A stretch of DNA of 64,000 nucleotides from Lacibacter cauensis (GTDB lineage Bacteria; Bacteroidota; Bacteroidia; Chitinophagales; Chitinophagaceae), in assembly GCF_007830055.1 (NCBI RefSeq), contig NZ_VLLE01000002.1, positions 879,953 through 943,952 of the forward strand, in the 5' to 3' direction. A program made the translations under genes and the position numbers. This document shows, piece after piece, positions 9,986-45,732 of the stretch (position 1 is its first letter; each line of letters starts with the position of its first letter). The notes under the pieces were generated by a model that was not told the origin of the DNA, ran no database searches, and worked only from the letters and a program-made list of their open reading frames with translations.

Positions 9986-11155
9986 ATGCAAGCAACAGAC
10001 ATCGCCCAGTTAAACAGCAGTTATACCAAACGGCAAATACGCATTGCAGTTTCTGTGTTCTTTTTCTGCCAGGGAATTTGTTTTGCCAGCTGGGCAAGCC
10101 GCATACCTGATATTAAAACCACCTTGCAATTATCGGAAGCTGCCTTGGGCAGCATTCTGCTGGCATTGCCTGCCGGACAATTAACGATGATGCCCTTCAG
10201 TGGTAAACTGGTTACACGTTTCGGCAGCAAATATGTGTTGCGGTTGGCCGCAATTGGCTATGCACTAACCTTAATCCTGATCGGATCTACCACAGCCGCC
10301 TGGCAATTGGCTGCAGCACTTTATTTATTTGGCTTATCAGGTAATCTCTGCAATATTTCTGTGAATACACAAGCAGTAAATGCAGAATCCTTGTTTGGCC
10401 GCTCTATACTTGCCTCCTTTCATGGTGTGTGGAGCACGGCCGGTTTTACGGGTGCATTGGTTGGTTTGCTGATGATGCGTTTCAACTTACAGCCGGTTTA
10501 TCACTTCATGCTTGTTGCAGGAACGGTCATTACACTGAATCTTTTCTTTCAGAAAAAACTCATCATTACCCCTGTAAGTAAAACAGCTTCATCGTTTAAA
10601 CGGTTTCAGTTTCCAAAAGGTTTGTTGTTGCAGTTGGGCTTGATTGCTTTTTGTTGTTTGAGTGCCGAAGGTTGTATGTTCGACTGGAGCGGTGTGTATT
10701 TTAAAGAAGTGGTGGAAGTAAAAGGCGAACTGGTATCGCTGGGTTATGCATCGTTTATGGTGATGATGGCCACCGGACGTTTTACCGGCGACAGATTAGC
10801 CGAACGTTTTGGCCGAAAGAGAATGGTGCAGCTGAGTGGTGTGCTCATCTTTACCGGAATGATGATTGCTGTATTGCTGCCCAACATCATTTTTGCAACC
10901 ATCGGTTTTATGATTGTAGGTTTTGGTGTGAGCAGTATTATTCCGCTTGTTTATAGTACCGCAGGAAAAGTAAAAGAAGTCGCCAGTGGTATTGCGATAG
11001 CAACTGTTTCAGGCGTTGGCTTTTTTGGCTTTTTGATGGGGCCACCATTGATTGGTTATATTGCAGAACTGGCCGGACTGCGCTCTTCCTTTGCAGTGAT
11101 TGCAGTATTGGGTTTGGTGATCAGCTATATGATCAGTAAGATCAAGTTGGCGTGA
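9986..11155 (+). CDS. Major facilitator superfamily transporter, YbjJ/fucose-permease-like
   Basis: A 389-residue inner-membrane carrier with about twelve hydrophobic segments in two halves. The N-terminal RIAVSVFFFCQGICFASWAS and SRIPDIKTTLQLSEAALG segments, SILASFHGVWSTAGFTGAL, and GRFTGDRLAERFGRKRMV (the inter-segment loop signature of MFS) place it with YbjJ-type and sugar permease-like members. The ATG at 9986 is preferred over the one at 9947, because the membrane protein similarity starts after it. It is divergent from the rhamnogalacturonan operon and shares its upstream region, so uptake of a released sugar such as rhamnose is plausible but not shown by the sequence. Confidence 0.85.
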   Translation: MQATDIAQLNSSYTKRQIRIAVSVFFFCQGICFASWASRIPDIKTTLQLSEAALGSILLALPAGQLTMMPFSGKLVTRFGSKYVLRLAAIGYALTLILIGSTTAAWQLAAALYLFGLSGNLCNISVNTQAVNAESLFGRSILASFHGVWSTAGFTGALVGLLMMRFNLQPVYHFMLVAGTVITLNLFFQKKLIITPVSKTASSFKRFQFPKGLLLQLGLIAFCCLSAEGCMFDWSGVYFKEVVEVKGELVSLGYASFMVMMATGRFTGDRLAERFGRKRMVQLSGVLIFTGMMIAVLLPNIIFATIGFMIVGFGVSSIIPLVYSTAGKVKEVASGIAIATVSGVGFFGFLMGPPLIGYIAELAGLRSSFAVIAVLGLVISYMISKIKLA

Positions 11156-37229: not shown

Positions 37230-39311
37230 TTAGTCTATCCATTGAATAAAGTCAGGGTATCTTTCGTAAGTTTTCCTTAGAAACATACACACATCGCTAT
37301 TTTTGTCCTTTATAGTAATTACAAGAGTGTCAATAGCCCTCGTCAACGGAATTAAAGACCATAAATAAACAAACTTTCTCCTTTTTTCTTCATTTGATTC
37401 CAAAGCAAGTTCATTTGTTTCTTCTTCAATAAAAGTCTCCATTTTGTATCGAATGAAGTCGTCTAATTCTAGGCAAACAACTGTCCAACCTTCAAGTCCT
37501 CTACATGATTCATATTGCAATAATCTATGCTGATTTAATTCTACTACATATTGAGTTCTTAAATCAGTATTAGTTAAATCCCAAATCGAAATCCCCATTT
37601 CTTTAAATGATTGGGTCAAGCTAAACATCCGCTTTTCAACCATTTTGCCCCACTCATTTACTTGCTGCGATCGTGAAACAAGACTCGGCGGCACTAAAAA
37701 CATCATTTCGTATTCTGAATTTTCACACTCTTTACATCTTTTCAATTGCTCGTCATGTAATTGCTTTGAATAACCACTAGTTGAAATAATAATCTTGCCT
37801 CCAATGAGTTCTTGCTTAGGTTCGATTTCCCATACGACACCACATTGCTTAGCATATTCATTCACAAAAGCAACTAAGTTTACCTCTTGCCTTAAACCCT
37901 TTTTCTCGTTTGTTTTTTTGAAGTCAACATCTGGCTTTAAGCCTTGAATCCAATTGCATTTCTTTTGGCTTCTTATTAGTTGGTCAACTCCATCTGCGAT
38001 AATTGCTTTGTCTCTACCGAAAATTGTAAAAATTATTTTCTTCTCATTTTCACTCCAATCTTGAGATTCGTCAATTAGTATATAGTCCCATGCAATTTTA
38101 TCATGCTTGCTGCGCATTAACTCTTGAATCTCCTTTTGTTGTATTAAACCTGCTTCTATACAATCGATGAGTTCTTTAAGGTAATCTTGATACTTGGAAA
38201 TAAAATCAGGAATATACTTTGCATCTTCTAAGGGATTATTAGGATTAGTAACTAAGCCAAAGCCAATTACTAATTCAAAGATGAACTTGTGCAAAGTAGT
38301 GATGTTTACAGTATAGCTATCAACCCCATCTGGAATTTCTGCTAACGCTAATGTTCTTTTAATATCACTGACTAAAGCATGATTATAAGTTAGTATCAAA
38401 GACCTTGCGCCTTTATTGATGGCTAAATCACAGGCAATCCTTAAAAGTTTAATTGTCTTTCCCGTGCCTGCTCTACCTGATATAACAATTAGTTTCTCTC
38501 CAATAGCTTGCGCATATTGCTGATTGTCTAAAAGTTTACTAGTAATTTGTTCAATCTTTTTTCTTGTCAGTTGACCTGTACCGACTTTAACTCTCTCAAA
38601 AATGTTAAAAACATTTTCCATTTGCGTAAAGTCAAAACTATCTTTTGATTTCAAGCAATTGAATGAGCAATAGCCTTTGTAATTGCCATCTTTATCTTTT
38701 GCATTATAAGGTGTTTGCTGAATGCATGCAAGTTGCATTAAAAACGGAAACTTAAAACTACTTGGTAAATAGTTATGCTTGGTATATAGCAATTCATTTT
38801 CACCTATTAAGTTTTTTATTGAATCCCAATTGACATTCCGAAACCAAATAAAATTGTTTATATACGGAGAAAATTTAAGTCTGTCACTTAAGAAGCCTTT
38901 TAGTGAATATTTCTGATTTTCACTTTGGGTTGTAACGTCAGAAAGTTTGTTGTTATATTTCACCAATAGGTTTAAACCTTCTAAGCGTATATCCTCTGCT
39001 CTATGTCTCTTTGTTTCGATTGTGAAGCAGAAGTTATTTACGAAGACGGTCCTTTCTTTTAATTCTAGTTCTTCTTTTCCAGGGCCAACTGCTTTTGTTT
39101 TAATATTACACCTATATTTTTCAAAATTCCCGATTACAATTAGGTCAACATCTTTGACTTCTTGCCCGAATAAAGTTGCATTTGAAACGATTAGAATTTC
39201 ACCGTCAGTAGTACGAGTGTCAATAGAACTTTCAAAGAGTTGCTTCAACTGTAAAGCATCTTGATATTCGTTGGTGTCAGGATTTCCTTTAATTCTAATT
39301 TTTATTGGCAT
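37230..39311 (-). CDS. NERD nuclease-like / superfamily I (UvrD-type) helicase
   Basis: A 693-residue cytoplasmic protein. The N-terminal part has the layout of a NERD-type nuclease: KDVDLIVIG near residue 54 and CFTIETKRHRAED near 99, an E-x-K pair. A cysteine-bearing linker follows (CSFNCLKSK). The helicase part has Walker A SGRAGTGKT near 279, Walker B YILIDESQDW near 417, CRGLEGWTVVCLELDDF and motif VI PLTRAID near 658. No UvrD-typical C-terminal accessory domain was recognised. The block from here to 41796 is A+T-richer than its surroundings. UvrD-type helicases pair with TOPRIM-ATPase proteins in Gabija systems, which makes a defence role likely. The gap to the DUF4435 gene is 189 bp. 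Confidence 0.82.
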   Translation of the reverse strand: MPIKIRIKGNPDTNEYQDALQLKQLFESSIDTRTTDGEILIVSNATLFGQEVKDVDLIVIGNFEKYRCNIKTKAVGPGKEELELKERTVFVNNFCFTIETKRHRAEDIRLEGLNLLVKYNNKLSDVTTQSENQKYSLKGFLSDRLKFSPYINNFIWFRNVNWDSIKNLIGENELLYTKHNYLPSSFKFPFLMQLACIQQTPYNAKDKDGNYKGYCSFNCLKSKDSFDFTQMENVFNIFERVKVGTGQLTRKKIEQITSKLLDNQQYAQAIGEKLIVISGRAGTGKTIKLLRIACDLAINKGARSLILTYNHALVSDIKRTLALAEIPDGVDSYTVNITTLHKFIFELVIGFGLVTNPNNPLEDAKYIPDFISKYQDYLKELIDCIEAGLIQQKEIQELMRSKHDKIAWDYILIDESQDWSENEKKIIFTIFGRDKAIIADGVDQLIRSQKKCNWIQGLKPDVDFKKTNEKKGLRQEVNLVAFVNEYAKQCGVVWEIEPKQELIGGKIIISTSGYSKQLHDEQLKRCKECENSEYEMMFLVPPSLVSRSQQVNEWGKMVEKRMFSLTQSFKEMGISIWDLTNTDLRTQYVVELNQHRLLQYESCRGLEGWTVVCLELDDFIRYKMETFIEEETNELALESNEEKRRKFVYLWSLIPLTRAIDTLVITIKDKNSDVCMFLRKTYERYPDFIQWID

Positions 39312-39426
39312 GTCGTATTAAGAATTCTATTATAATACTTATTCAAAAGAATTAAAAAGTTGAGCGATATCCTGAGTTACAAACGCAGGACAGCTTTCTA
39401 CTTTCTATTCTTTACTCATCTTTTAC

Positions 39427-39468
39427 CTCAGCCAGCTATATTAGTTTGGAACACTAAGGATGGCTGAG
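39427..39468. other. Stem-loop between the DUF4435 and helicase genes
   Basis: CTCAGCCA at 39427-39434 is complementary to TGGCTGAG at 39461-39468 around a 26-base loop. No T run follows, so it is not a standard terminator. Confidence 0.45.
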
Positions 39469-39500
39469 AATATTCAGCCCTGCTTTTGATAGGCGTTCAT

Positions 39501-40433
39501 TTATGGGAACAACTGCTTTAAGAAATTCTCGAACCGTTTTGGAATAGAAGTTCGTGGTCCGATTATTTCAAGAGCGTTACTATGATTAATATTAGTTTTA
39601 ACTTTTGAATTATGATTGTATGTTTTTAATAAGTAGTTGTTAATTCGATTAAAGAAGGTGATAAAAAACCAAGCTTCAAACTTCCCACGCAAATAGATTT
39701 TATAACTTGGCATCGTACCTGTAATAGAATACCAATGTTTAAATCCAGATAGGTGAACTTCAGGAGTTTTGACGTGTGTCACTTTCTCTAAATAAGCGAT
39801 TTTATCAATACTATTCTTTGAAAAAGATAAATCCTCGCTTATTTGGAAAAGCTTTGCAAGGTCAATCATGTTCAAATTTGCTTTAAGTCTATGACTTCTT
39901 ATAGTCAAGATCCACGCAAGAATTGGTTTAATGTTTTTAATGAATAATTCGAGTTCTGATTCGTACTTCACCACAATTTTATTTATTTCCACTTCTTCGT
40001 GAAAATGCAAGATTTCACGAATTAACCTTTTCAAAACTTCTGAATTGGATATATAGTTTTCTATGGAATAGTATGTTGTTTCATAAATGTTGTTATCCGT
40101 TGGGACTGCCTCCCCTAAAATTCTACTATAATCCCTGTCTATGAAAATGATAATTCGCTTTTTATCGTACTTAGCCCAATCAATTTTATCGTAGATTTCA
40201 ATAGATTGTTTTTTTCCTAAACTGATGTGTGTAACATAATTACTTGACAGTCCTTGAAGATAGTTAAAATAAAATGATTGGTCTTCGTAGCCTTCAAAAA
40301 TATAATGCATTTCGTCGTTATTAAATCTATACTTCTGCAATAGCTTAAGATAAGCAAAGTTTGAAGTTTGTGCTTTTTGTTTTAAGGTTTCAACAGCGTC
40401 CATAAATAAATTACTTAATTGAAATAAATTCAT
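39501..40433 (-). CDS. DUF4435-type protein (AriB-like TOPRIM nuclease)
   Basis: A 310-residue cytoplasmic protein. The N-terminal FEGYEDQSFYFNYL near residue 50 and KRIIIFIDRDYSRI near residue 100 fit the acidic positions of a TOPRIM-like fold, as in DUF4435 proteins. In PARIS defence systems the DUF4435 subunit (AriB) is the toxic nuclease held inactive by the AriA ATPase. The gene follows an ATPase gene, overlapping it by 23 bp from the start at 40433 (AAAGGA lies a few bases upstream), or separated by 7 bp if ATG 40403 is used. The family call is by pattern and is not certain. Confidence 0.65.
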   Translation of the reverse strand: MNLFQLSNLFMDAVETLKQKAQTSNFAYLKLLQKYRFNNDEMHYIFEGYEDQSFYFNYLQGLSSNYVTHISLGKKQSIEIYDKIDWAKYDKKRIIIFIDRDYSRILGEAVPTDNNIYETTYYSIENYISNSEVLKRLIREILHFHEEVEINKIVVKYESELELFIKNIKPILAWILTIRSHRLKANLNMIDLAKLFQISEDLSFSKNSIDKIAYLEKVTHVKTPEVHLSGFKHWYSITGTMPSYKIYLRGKFEAWFFITFFNRINNYLLKTYNHNSKVKTNINHSNALEIIGPRTSIPKRFENFLKQLFP

Positions 40434-41796
40434 TAAATCCTTTAGTGTGTTTTATCAAAGAATCATTGAAAATAAAAGGAGAATGTGTGACGGCGATTAA
40501 TCCTGAATTATTAGCATTTAATATGTCTTGTAAGAATCGTTCCTGCCAAGAAACAGACAAGGATAGTTCAGGTTCGTCAATTATGACAAAAAACTGCTTT
40601 GTATCTGATAAATATAAATGACTAAATAATGAAACGATTTGCTTTTCACCTGAACTAAGCTTAGAGAAATCAATCTCCTTTTCTTGTTGTGTTAGATAAA
40701 CTTTAATTTTCCTTTCTTCTCTTGAATAAATAAACTTTTTATTGTTGCAATAACTATTACATATTTCCACGAAACTGGTTACTTCTTGTTCAGCAATAGA
40801 TTGTTTTTCATAAATATCAACTAGCTTCTGAATAAAATATGCAATAATTTTACTTTCATTCGTAATAGATGCAGGATCTGTCTTATAAGTGTCAACAAAT
40901 CTACTCAGACTATCTTTTTCATTTTTCTGAAGAATACTATTATCAATCCTATTCAATATTTCATTAAGCTTTTCACTTGTTATAGTGTCCAATACGTTGT
41001 AATTGTATTTTTCATAATTTTTGTTGAGGATGTCTCTTAAGTACCCCCCCATTAATGATTGTCTCAAATTGTTAGTGAAATTTATATAGAGTGAGTTTAG
41101 TTTTCGCTCAACTTTCTGTTGCACATCATCCATGCCAAACTCCACTAATTCAATATACTTGCTTGAATTCTCCTGCTCAACATGAAGTCTTTTGTTTCTT
41201 AATGAGTCTAGATTTGTTTCCAAATCTGGGAAGATATTCTTCAAATCTTTTTCAATTCTCCGATAGGTTGGAAGATAAAGTATTTGGGACTTAATTTCTT
41301 TATTTAGTATTTCAGAAATCTTATCAATGTTATCTGATGAATCCTTTGTAGAAAATAGTAGTTCATTGGAAATGTCAAACAATACAGAAACTGGCACATC
41401 AAATCTACTTGCAAGTTGCTCTAATTCAAAGGGACTGTTTAAAAGAGCTTGAATATCATGGGTCTCAAGAATATAGTCTGCAATTCTTGATATTCTTGGA
41501 CTTTGCGTTCTACGAAAACTTCGATTTCTTAATTTTCTAAGTTTAATAAAGTTATTCAACTCCTCTCGCTGAACTTTAAATTCATTGTCTCCAATTTCAA
41601 ATATCAATGTTTCAAAATGGTATTCTGTTAATTTGTACCACTGCCGAGATAAGGTGTAATAAATTATATTAACAATTGTTGTCTTACCGAGTCCATTTTC
41701 TGCGACGATAATTAGGTTACTATCGTCGATGTTAATTTTAACATCCATGTCACCATGTAGACCAAGAATTTCGAATCTTTTTAATTGTAGTAGCAT
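40411..41796 (-). CDS. OLD/AriA-like AAA ATPase
   Basis: A 461-residue SMC/ABC-type ATPase. Walker A is VAENGLGKTTIVN near residue 35, the ABC signature LSSGEKQIVSLFSHLY near 375, Walker B FFVIIDEPELSLS near 402, and a switch His in VTHSPFIF near 438. A helical region with coiled-coil character lies between residues 130 and 350. This is the shape of AAA_15/AAA_21 proteins, including AriA of PARIS and the ATPase half of OLD and GajA proteins. The protein has no TOPRIM domain of its own, which is supplied by the next gene. It is the first gene of the block. Confidence 0.8.
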   Translation of the reverse strand: MLLQLKRFEILGLHGDMDVKINIDDSNLIIVAENGLGKTTIVNIIYYTLSRQWYKLTEYHFETLIFEIGDNEFKVQREELNNFIKLRKLRNRSFRRTQSPRISRIADYILETHDIQALLNSPFELEQLASRFDVPVSVLFDISNELLFSTKDSSDNIDKISEILNKEIKSQILYLPTYRRIEKDLKNIFPDLETNLDSLRNKRLHVEQENSSKYIELVEFGMDDVQQKVERKLNSLYINFTNNLRQSLMGGYLRDILNKNYEKYNYNVLDTITSEKLNEILNRIDNSILQKNEKDSLSRFVDTYKTDPASITNESKIIAYFIQKLVDIYEKQSIAEQEVTSFVEICNSYCNNKKFIYSREERKIKVYLTQQEKEIDFSKLSSGEKQIVSLFSHLYLSDTKQFFVIIDEPELSLSVSWQERFLQDILNANNSGLIAVTHSPFIFNDSLIKHTKGFNEFISIK

Positions 41797-42199: not shown

Positions 42200-42470
42200 C
42201 CTTTGGTATACAATACAAAGCCCTTTGTTATACCATACAAGACCCTTTGCTATACCATACAAGCCCCTTTGCTATACCATACAAAGCCCTTTGTTATACC
42301 ATACAAGACCCTTTGTTATACCATACAAAGCCCTTTGCTGTACTATACAAAGATATTCTCCCATGTATCCGAAGCCCTTCGGTAAACTATGAAAAGGCCT
42401 TCTCATATGTATGAAACGACCTTTGGTAAACTATCCAAAAGCCTTCACCCAACCATCCAAAGGCCCTTTT
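42200..42470. repeat. 22-bp tandem array, about 13 units
   Basis: A CCTTTG word recurs at exactly 22-bp steps: 42200, 42222, 42244, 42266, 42288, 42310 and 42332, with weaker forms at 42376, 42398, 42420, 42442 and about 42464; the unit at 42354 is worn. The rest of the unit is TATACCATACAA plus two to four purine/C bases. Register is kept through the degenerate part, so it is an old array with a recent homogenised core. There is no spacer diversity. Confidence 0.93.
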
Positions 42471-42520: not shown

Positions 42521-42597
42521 TGTCATTCCGACGCAGGAGGAATCTGTCTATCGCTTGCACCACAGCCCAACGGATCCCTCGTTCCTCGGGATGACAG
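42521..42597. repeat. TGTCATTCCG palindromic repeat, copy 1
   Basis: A 77-bp imperfect palindrome beginning TGTCATTCCG and ending TCGGGATGACAG, with CACAGCCCAACGGATCCCTC in the middle. Copy 2 is at 45656-45732. Confidence 0.85.
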
Positions 42598-45655: not shown

Positions 45656-45732
45656 TGTCATTCCGAGGCACGAGGAATCTGTTCATCCTTTGTACTACAG
45701 CCCAACAGATCCCTCCTTCGTCGGGATGACAG
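45656..45732. repeat. TGTCATTCCG palindromic repeat, copy 2
   Basis: TGTCATTCCGAGGCACGAGG to CGTCGGGATGACAG, with ACAGCCCAACAGATCCCTCC in the middle; the same layout as 42521-42597. Confidence 0.85.

Follow-up and report, generated by a model that had tools for sequence, protein, structure and literature searches.

In Escherichia coli, the PARIS defence system requires both of its genes, ariA and ariB, together with their catalytic residues, and the protein Ocr acts as its trigger (PMC9122126; this and all other sources are cited from their accessible sections). AriB of E. coli is a proposed two-metal TOPRIM ribonuclease (PMC12409363). Its cuts fall in the anticodon stem of tRNA-Lys(UUU) and tRNA-Thr(UGU) and, with lower efficiency, of tRNA-Asn (PMC12409363). 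For the detection of PARIS, Rousset et al. applied a two-gene rule, in which AAA_15 at 32 bits or AAA_21 at 27 bits is combined with DUF4435 at 27 bits (PMC9122126). Here we analyse a stretch of 64,000 nucleotides from Lacibacter cauensis (contig NZ_VLLE01000002.1, positions 879,953 to 943,952, forward strand; hereafter the window), in which an AriA-like ATPase gene and an AriB-like DUF4435 gene are followed by a gene for a superfamily 1 (SF1) helicase with an N-terminal nuclease. A sequence-only reading of this DNA had taken the three genes for a possible hybrid of PARIS and Gabija. We conclude that the locus most probably holds a PARIS module beside a separately acquired and probably free-standing nuclease-helicase, that is, two neighbouring defence modules. 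The genes concerned are as follows.

40411..41796, minus strand: ariA-like OLD-family ATP-binding cassette (ABC) ATPase, 461 amino acids; Pfam, PADLOC and PDB AriA profile match
39501..40433, minus strand: ariB-like DUF4435 TOPRIM-type nuclease (predicted), 310 amino acids; Pfam, PADLOC and conserved residues
39312..39500, minus strand: 189-nt gap between ariB and the helicase gene, single copy in the genome
37230..39311, minus strand: SF1 helicase with predicted N-terminal PD-(D/E)xK-type nuclease, 693 amino acids; judged an independent neighbour of the PARIS pair

The open reading frames (ORFs) lie on one strand as the sequence-only reading had described them; the ATPase and DUF4435 genes overlap by 23 bp, and the gap of 189 bp precedes the helicase gene. 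The ATPase scores 48.9 bits with AAA_15 (cut-off 32.1) and 47.0 bits with AAA_21 (cut-off 27), and the DUF4435 protein scores 60.5 bits (cut-off 27), with which the pair passes the published PARIS rule. The best PADLOC matches are AriA (E-value 1.2e-26) and AriB (1.3e-19), respectively. GajA, the ATPase-TOPRIM fusion of Gabija, is absent from the best 25 of the 42 PADLOC models matched by the ATPase. A profile of four ATPases compared with PDB retrieved the solved AriA structures 8ux9 and 8v45 at about 2.5e-16, the match being best over the last third. The ATPase also carries an LSSGEKQ signature, and its motifs, which we take to be Walker A, signature and Walker B, are conserved in four aligned homologues.

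41677-41700, minus strand: Walker A motif of the ATPase
40567-40584, minus strand: Walker B motif IIDEPE of the ATPase

Because the published score rule is passed, PDB AriA is matched and the genes overlap, we assign the two genes to PARIS: they are a predicted complete PARIS pair, divergent and of an already known kind. The ATPase and the TOPRIM-type part are thus split as in PARIS, which had been proposed from the DNA and is borne out by the scores and the PDB match. The locus resembles the described system in that the gene of its OLD-type ABC ATPase overlaps that of a DUF4435/TOPRIM-type nuclease, and in the residues E47, DxD and (S)IENY of the window AriB, which align with E26, DxE and SLENY of E. 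coli AriB. It differs in the divergence of its AriB and in the nuclease-helicase gene that follows the pair.

In the window AriB, residues E47, D99, D101, Y122, E125 and N126 are invariant in all four rows of one alignment and all six rows of another.

40293-40295, minus strand: codon of AriB E47, aligned residue
40137-40139, minus strand: codon of AriB D99, aligned residue
40131-40133, minus strand: codon of AriB D101, aligned residue

The solved AriB in PDB is matched only weakly by sequence (E-value 0.36), which marks the window protein as divergent. This weak alignment puts E47 on E26 of E. coli AriB, D99 and D101 on a D and an E, and SIENY on SLENY. In TOPRIM domains, strands 1 and 3 end in the acidic residues. 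The AlphaFold2 model of the window AriB, with a predicted local distance difference test score (pLDDT) of 69.5, has a beta-alpha-beta-alpha-beta order, in which E47 follows strand 1 and D99 and D101 stand at or after strand 3. Searching with this model, Foldseek returned no PDB match at an E-value of 0.001 or below. As to the TOPRIM-like fold assumed in the sequence-only reading, the motifs and the order of the strands agree with it, but the weak model gave no significant structural match. We consider it likely that AriB adopts a TOPRIM fold.

The third protein is harder to name. Its N-terminal domain is a predicted PD-(D/E)xK-type nuclease, in which D56, E99 and K101 have the layout of that family and are invariant in all 83 aligned sequences (the window protein and 82 relatives). 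Walker A K285, Walker B D414/E415 and R658 are invariant in the same 83 sequences.

39144-39146, minus strand: codon of helicase D56, nuclease triad
39015-39017, minus strand: codon of helicase E99, nuclease triad
39009-39011, minus strand: codon of helicase K101, nuclease triad
38454-38477, minus strand: Walker A motif of the helicase

These relatives come from 87 helicase loci (80 from genomes, 7 from viral contigs); L029, L031, L038, L069 and L101 do not appear in the alignment because their sequences are partial, split or divergent. L023 entered it from position 10001 instead of its longest ORF start. Profile scans of the family covered 48 of the 83 rows. The front had been called NERD-like; a nuclease triad is indeed present in all 83 aligned sequences, but the Pfam NERD score (PF08378) is 12.6 against a cut-off of 22.1, and NERD is reached at an E-value of 0.01 or below by 5 of the 48 scanned members. 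The label 'UvrD-type' proved loose in a similar way. The best fold matches of the helicase model (pLDDT 89.4, predicted template modelling score 0.82) are SF1 helicases; SLFN11, the nuclease-helicase Dna2, Rep and UvrD rank first, UPF1 is also among them, and TM-scores are only 0.19-0.43. UvrD PF00580 stays below its cut-off (19.8 of 23), and the Pfam families above cut-off are AAA_19 (36.5 bits), PhoH (28.0) and the Schlafen-group-3 helicase (26.3). PF13361 is unlisted among its Pfam matches.

The best PADLOC match of the helicase is C3a187 'NERD+UvrD' (E-value 1.9e-09), a model reached at 1e-5 or below by 34 of the 48 scanned members. C3a187 and Nhi-like nuclease-helicases share with the window protein an N-terminal nuclease and an SF1 helicase. 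In the window protein, however, C3a187 aligns with the helicase part alone (residues 262-666), and the best Nhi stretch in PADLOC is confined to the Walker A region (residues 254-307).

Like Gabija, the locus places an SF1 helicase next to an OLD ATPase and a TOPRIM-type protein. On the other hand, the window ATPase and TOPRIM-type protein are encoded by separate genes, unfused unlike GajA, and the window helicase has an N-terminal nuclease and falls below the PF00580 cut-off; by that cut-off it is not GajB. A true three-part hybrid would join AriA and AriB to a GajB-like helicase in one complex or pathway. In its favour, the three genes share a strand and a low-GC block, the PADLOC GajB model gives a weak, partial match in the first RecA domain (residues 276-429, E-value 5e-07), and the table of a 2023 review lists PF00580 under PARIS 1 as well (PMC10952713). 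The A+T-rich block itself had been correctly recognised: GC content is 0.302 in the ATPase gene, 0.303 in the DUF4435 gene and 0.335 in the helicase gene, compared with 0.43-0.46 in four flanking genes and 0.42 in the whole window. The hybrid is nevertheless highly improbable in view of the separate nearest relatives of pair and helicase, the low PF00580 score, the absence of a second case in 80 + 20 + 10 loci and the different partners that recur beside the helicase family, DruE and a sigma-like/helicase pair, all set out below.

A neighbourhood survey, which had been proposed along with the hybrid, was run from both sides. For the helicase, a search of genomes from 84,980 species gave 165 relatives, of which the best 80 were examined with flanks of up to 10 kb per side (1.23 Mb in total); all results on partners concern these flanks. 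Each species is represented by a single genome, close relatives are favoured, and ORFs were called mechanically (at least 90 amino acids, longest first). The helicase loci are not all independent, since L016 is the same stretch as G355 and the helicases of L051 and L052 are identical. AriB was found at an E-value of 0.1 or below in none of the 80 helicase loci, and the same search found it in none of the 7 helicase loci on viral contigs. The nearest relatives found for the helicase are those of Flavobacterium daemonense (72% identical) and G355 (71%), and the flanks of both contain no AriA or AriB match; in G355 the neighbour is an esterase-like gene (DUF7379). Among 395 genomes of the class, the helicase occurs in three, the own genome included, and one of these three is a weak partial match.

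The nearest AriAB pair found leads elsewhere. It lies in G278, a genome of the same family (locus L006), with AriA 92% and AriB 80% identical, and a single-sequence AriB search of the 395 class genomes returned only the own genome and G278. The helicase is absent from the 17-kb AriAB stretch of G278 and, at an E-value of 0.001 or below, from that genome. As a separate observation, the gene beside this pair (L006:9462-10709) matches PADLOC PDC-S54, a candidate defence family, at 1.3e-135, and is followed by further unnamed ORFs on the same strand.

Of the 395 genomes of Bacteroidota, 21 contain DUF4435, at 22 places in all. We took the 20 places beyond the own genome and G278 with their flanks; 14 of them also match the AriA profile, and none has the helicase at an E-value of 0.01 or below. 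An AriA scan of viral contigs yielded 10 AriA-like loci, 5 of them with AriB, again with no helicase at that threshold, and a direct AriB scan of the viral contigs found none. Phage records gave no tblastn match for helicase or AriB. On plasmids, the helicase is absent at the two AriAB loci examined (L011, L014) of three AriB records, and AriB is absent at the four helicase records examined of six. Within the sample, the pairing of AriAB with the helicase is thus seen solely in the window. The proposal of a three-part hybrid is not supported on these counts, with AriB in 0 of 80 helicase loci, a G278 pair that lacks the helicase and a PF00580 score below cut-off; the alternative offered with it, a helicase that is an unrelated passenger, fits best. 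We regard the two modules as independent neighbours because their nearest relatives are separate and the pairing is absent elsewhere in the sample.

Several observations weigh against this reading. Flanks of at least 3 kb on both sides are available in 56 of the 80 helicase loci, and of at least 9 kb in 39; the DUF4435 stretches L152, L159, L162 and L163 end near the gene on one side, several viral AriA-like loci end soon after AriA, and no genome of the same genus is among those listed. The only AriA match in the 80 helicase loci is a weak one, in L085 (1.7e-5), which has no AriB-profile match. In L019, a close relative, an AbiLi/AriA-type ATPase gene comes 148 bp after the helicase gene; this locus has no AriB-profile match either, in a search that covered AriB and not other TOPRIM families. 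The structure search leaves the TOPRIM fold of AriB unproven at the level of the model. In the window itself, the three genes point the same way within a single A+T-rich block, and no clear promoter is seen in the gap, so that co-transcription of ariAB and the helicase gene is possible. The sample also leaves room for a rare, recent and functional association at the window locus alone.

The gap at 39312-39500 bears on the last points. The region contains 24 sigma-70-type sites where chance alone predicts 22.3; one site with 9 of 12 positions (39321-39292) overlaps the helicase start, and a Bacteroidota-type promoter pattern is absent from the gap. The gap is moderately structured as RNA (z -2.6, with 4 of 200 shuffles as stable), has no Rfam match, and has one plasmid match over 15% of its length (E-value 0.04). 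Directly after the ariB stop region, 16 nt (GAACGCCTATCAAAAG) are common to the window and G278, after which the sequences diverge. This shared stretch and the hairpin-rich gap had prompted the idea of an integron cassette, which was dropped: the integrase model stays below cut-off in G000, G278 and G355, and the same weak matches appear in 14 of 14 control genomes.

By analogy with E. coli PARIS, from whose literature trigger, activation and tRNA target are borrowed here, the OLD-type ABC ATPase AriA would bind AriB and keep it inactive until a phage product, in E. coli the anti-restriction protein Ocr, triggers the system. AriB would then cleave host tRNA as a two-metal TOPRIM nuclease, bringing translation to a halt and aborting the infection. 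The nuclease-helicase may translocate along foreign DNA on its SF1 motor and cut with the N-terminal PD-(D/E)xK domain; its fold and neighbours point to this defence role and substrate. It probably acts alone here, as seems to be so in most of its closest relatives.

A looser functional link would not need the proteins to bind each other. In such an arrangement the helicase would be a first-line, DNA-targeting defence and PARIS a guard that fires when a phage inhibits DNA-targeting defence, and selection would act on the adjacency. An anti-restriction protein activates PARIS, and published work describes the recruitment of PARIS-type pairs to restriction and BREX loci (PMC9122126, PMC12839542, PMC9009780). 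In our sample, AriA and AriB of L158 (7868-13092) are followed, at a distance of 3 bp from ariB, by an HsdR-like type I restriction ORF, and a Leptospira record has a methyltransferase gene near AriAB on the other strand. However, the pairing with the window helicase is seen once, AriB is missing from all 80 helicase loci, and the nearest AriAB pair, in G278, has no such neighbour, so we consider the guard arrangement unlikely. Independently of this question, the row AriA-AriB-HsdR-like at L158:7868-13092 is a candidate PARIS-restriction operon.

The reading of two independent modules shifts attention to the company that the helicase family keeps elsewhere. A DruE relative (E-value 1e-10 or below) is found on the same strand in 36 of the 80 helicase loci, immediately upstream of the helicase gene in 22 of them, separated from it by about -64 to 76 bp, and two to four genes downstream in 14; example stretches are L092:1511-11959, L083:465-11959 and L048:9932-21469. 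Other Druantia genes occur nearby, DruD in 12 loci and DruF in 9, and one further neighbour family is named DruL. A sigma-like gene (MzaA-type) is present in 12 of the 80 loci (5.8 kb away in L079), 10 of which also have a DpdF/C3a193-like helicase. Queries for the Druantia genes found none in the controls, the 20 DUF4435 loci and the 10 viral AriA loci. Two recurrent neighbour families of about 955 and 1078 amino acids matched no PADLOC model.

In the tree, the window helicase falls in a ten-row clade of Bacteroidota and Ignavibacteriota with a support of 87 by a quick method, the Shimodaira-Hasegawa-like approximate likelihood ratio test (SH-aLRT). Among the nine relatives in this clade, one (L021) has DruE and eight have none of the tested partners, although L017, L018 and L020 have a short flank on one side. 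Meanwhile, nine neighbour proteins from six clade loci were scanned, and four of them match PADLOC defence models: HsdR- and Qat-type in L022, JukA-like in L017 and AbiLi-like in L019. The other five match none. DruE has no match in the window, and none at an E-value of 0.001 or below in the genome, in a search that had no positive control.

These data also bear on whether the helicase is a defence gene at all. It might instead be a DNA-repair or housekeeping nuclease-helicase, as its fold resembles the repair and RNA-surveillance helicases Dna2, UvrD and UPF1, none of the tested partners is found in 28 of the 80 loci (some with short flanks), and the five neighbours without a model are in keeping with such a role. 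We think this quite unlikely. The gene is very patchy, occurring in few class genomes as described above, its GC content is low here, DruE accompanies 36 of 80 loci compared with 0 of 20 and 0 of 10 in the controls, and the remaining four scanned neighbours resemble defence proteins.

On the other hand, the nuclease-helicase could be an exchangeable module that serves unrelated defence cores, namely Druantia of several gene layouts, the pair of sigma-like protein and DpdF-like helicase and, here, PARIS, with PARIS guarding it or acting as its fail-safe. We regard this as a rather doubtful extension.

The surroundings of the block agree with the earlier description of a location between pectin genes, with a GH28 pectinase on one side and an alpha-L-rhamnosidase on the other. 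Upstream of ariA, a 22-bp tandem-repeat array (window 42200-42439) comprises 7 copies at 87% match followed by more degenerate ones; its exact pattern has 2 matches genome-wide, both inside the array. An interspersed element resembling repetitive extragenic palindromic (REP) sequences, GTCATCCCGAGGAACGAGGGATC, occurs at window 42573-42595, 45657-45679 and 45708-45730 with 0-3 mismatches, where none is expected by chance. One copy lies between the PARIS block and the rhamnosidase gene, and two lie beyond the latter.

Combinations of AriA, AriB or DUF4435 with a helicase or NERD protein did not appear as a described system in the literature searched, which included the accessible sections of PMC9122126, PMC12839542, PMC10568477 and PMC9009780. 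Likewise, no published description of a link between this helicase family and Druantia was found in the literature searched, beyond whose reach most subscription papers lay. Among other systems, ARMADA type II combines a YprA-type helicase with a GajB-like helicase that has a RelE-like front (PMC12458937). It is alike in also carrying YprA-type and GajB-like helicases, and differs in that its helicase N-terminus is described as RelE-like, whereas that of the window helicase is PD-(D/E)xK-like; NERD occurs twice in that paper, and the NERD passage in its accessible sections concerns TALON. In CoCoNuTs, the SF1 partner is the UPF1-like CnuH, and the accessible sections of PMC11090510 make no mention of NERD. 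Druantia is alike in terms of company, sharing through DruE a locus with 36 of the 80 relatives of the window helicase, and differs in the lack of DruE here.

For L. cauensis, the locus is accounted for by a divergent PARIS pair and, next to it, a nuclease-helicase whose naming is uncertain; no new type of system is needed. The more useful outcome lies outside the window. Members of the helicase family recur beside DruE on the same strand, which suggests that the family may be an unrecognised accessory gene of Druantia.

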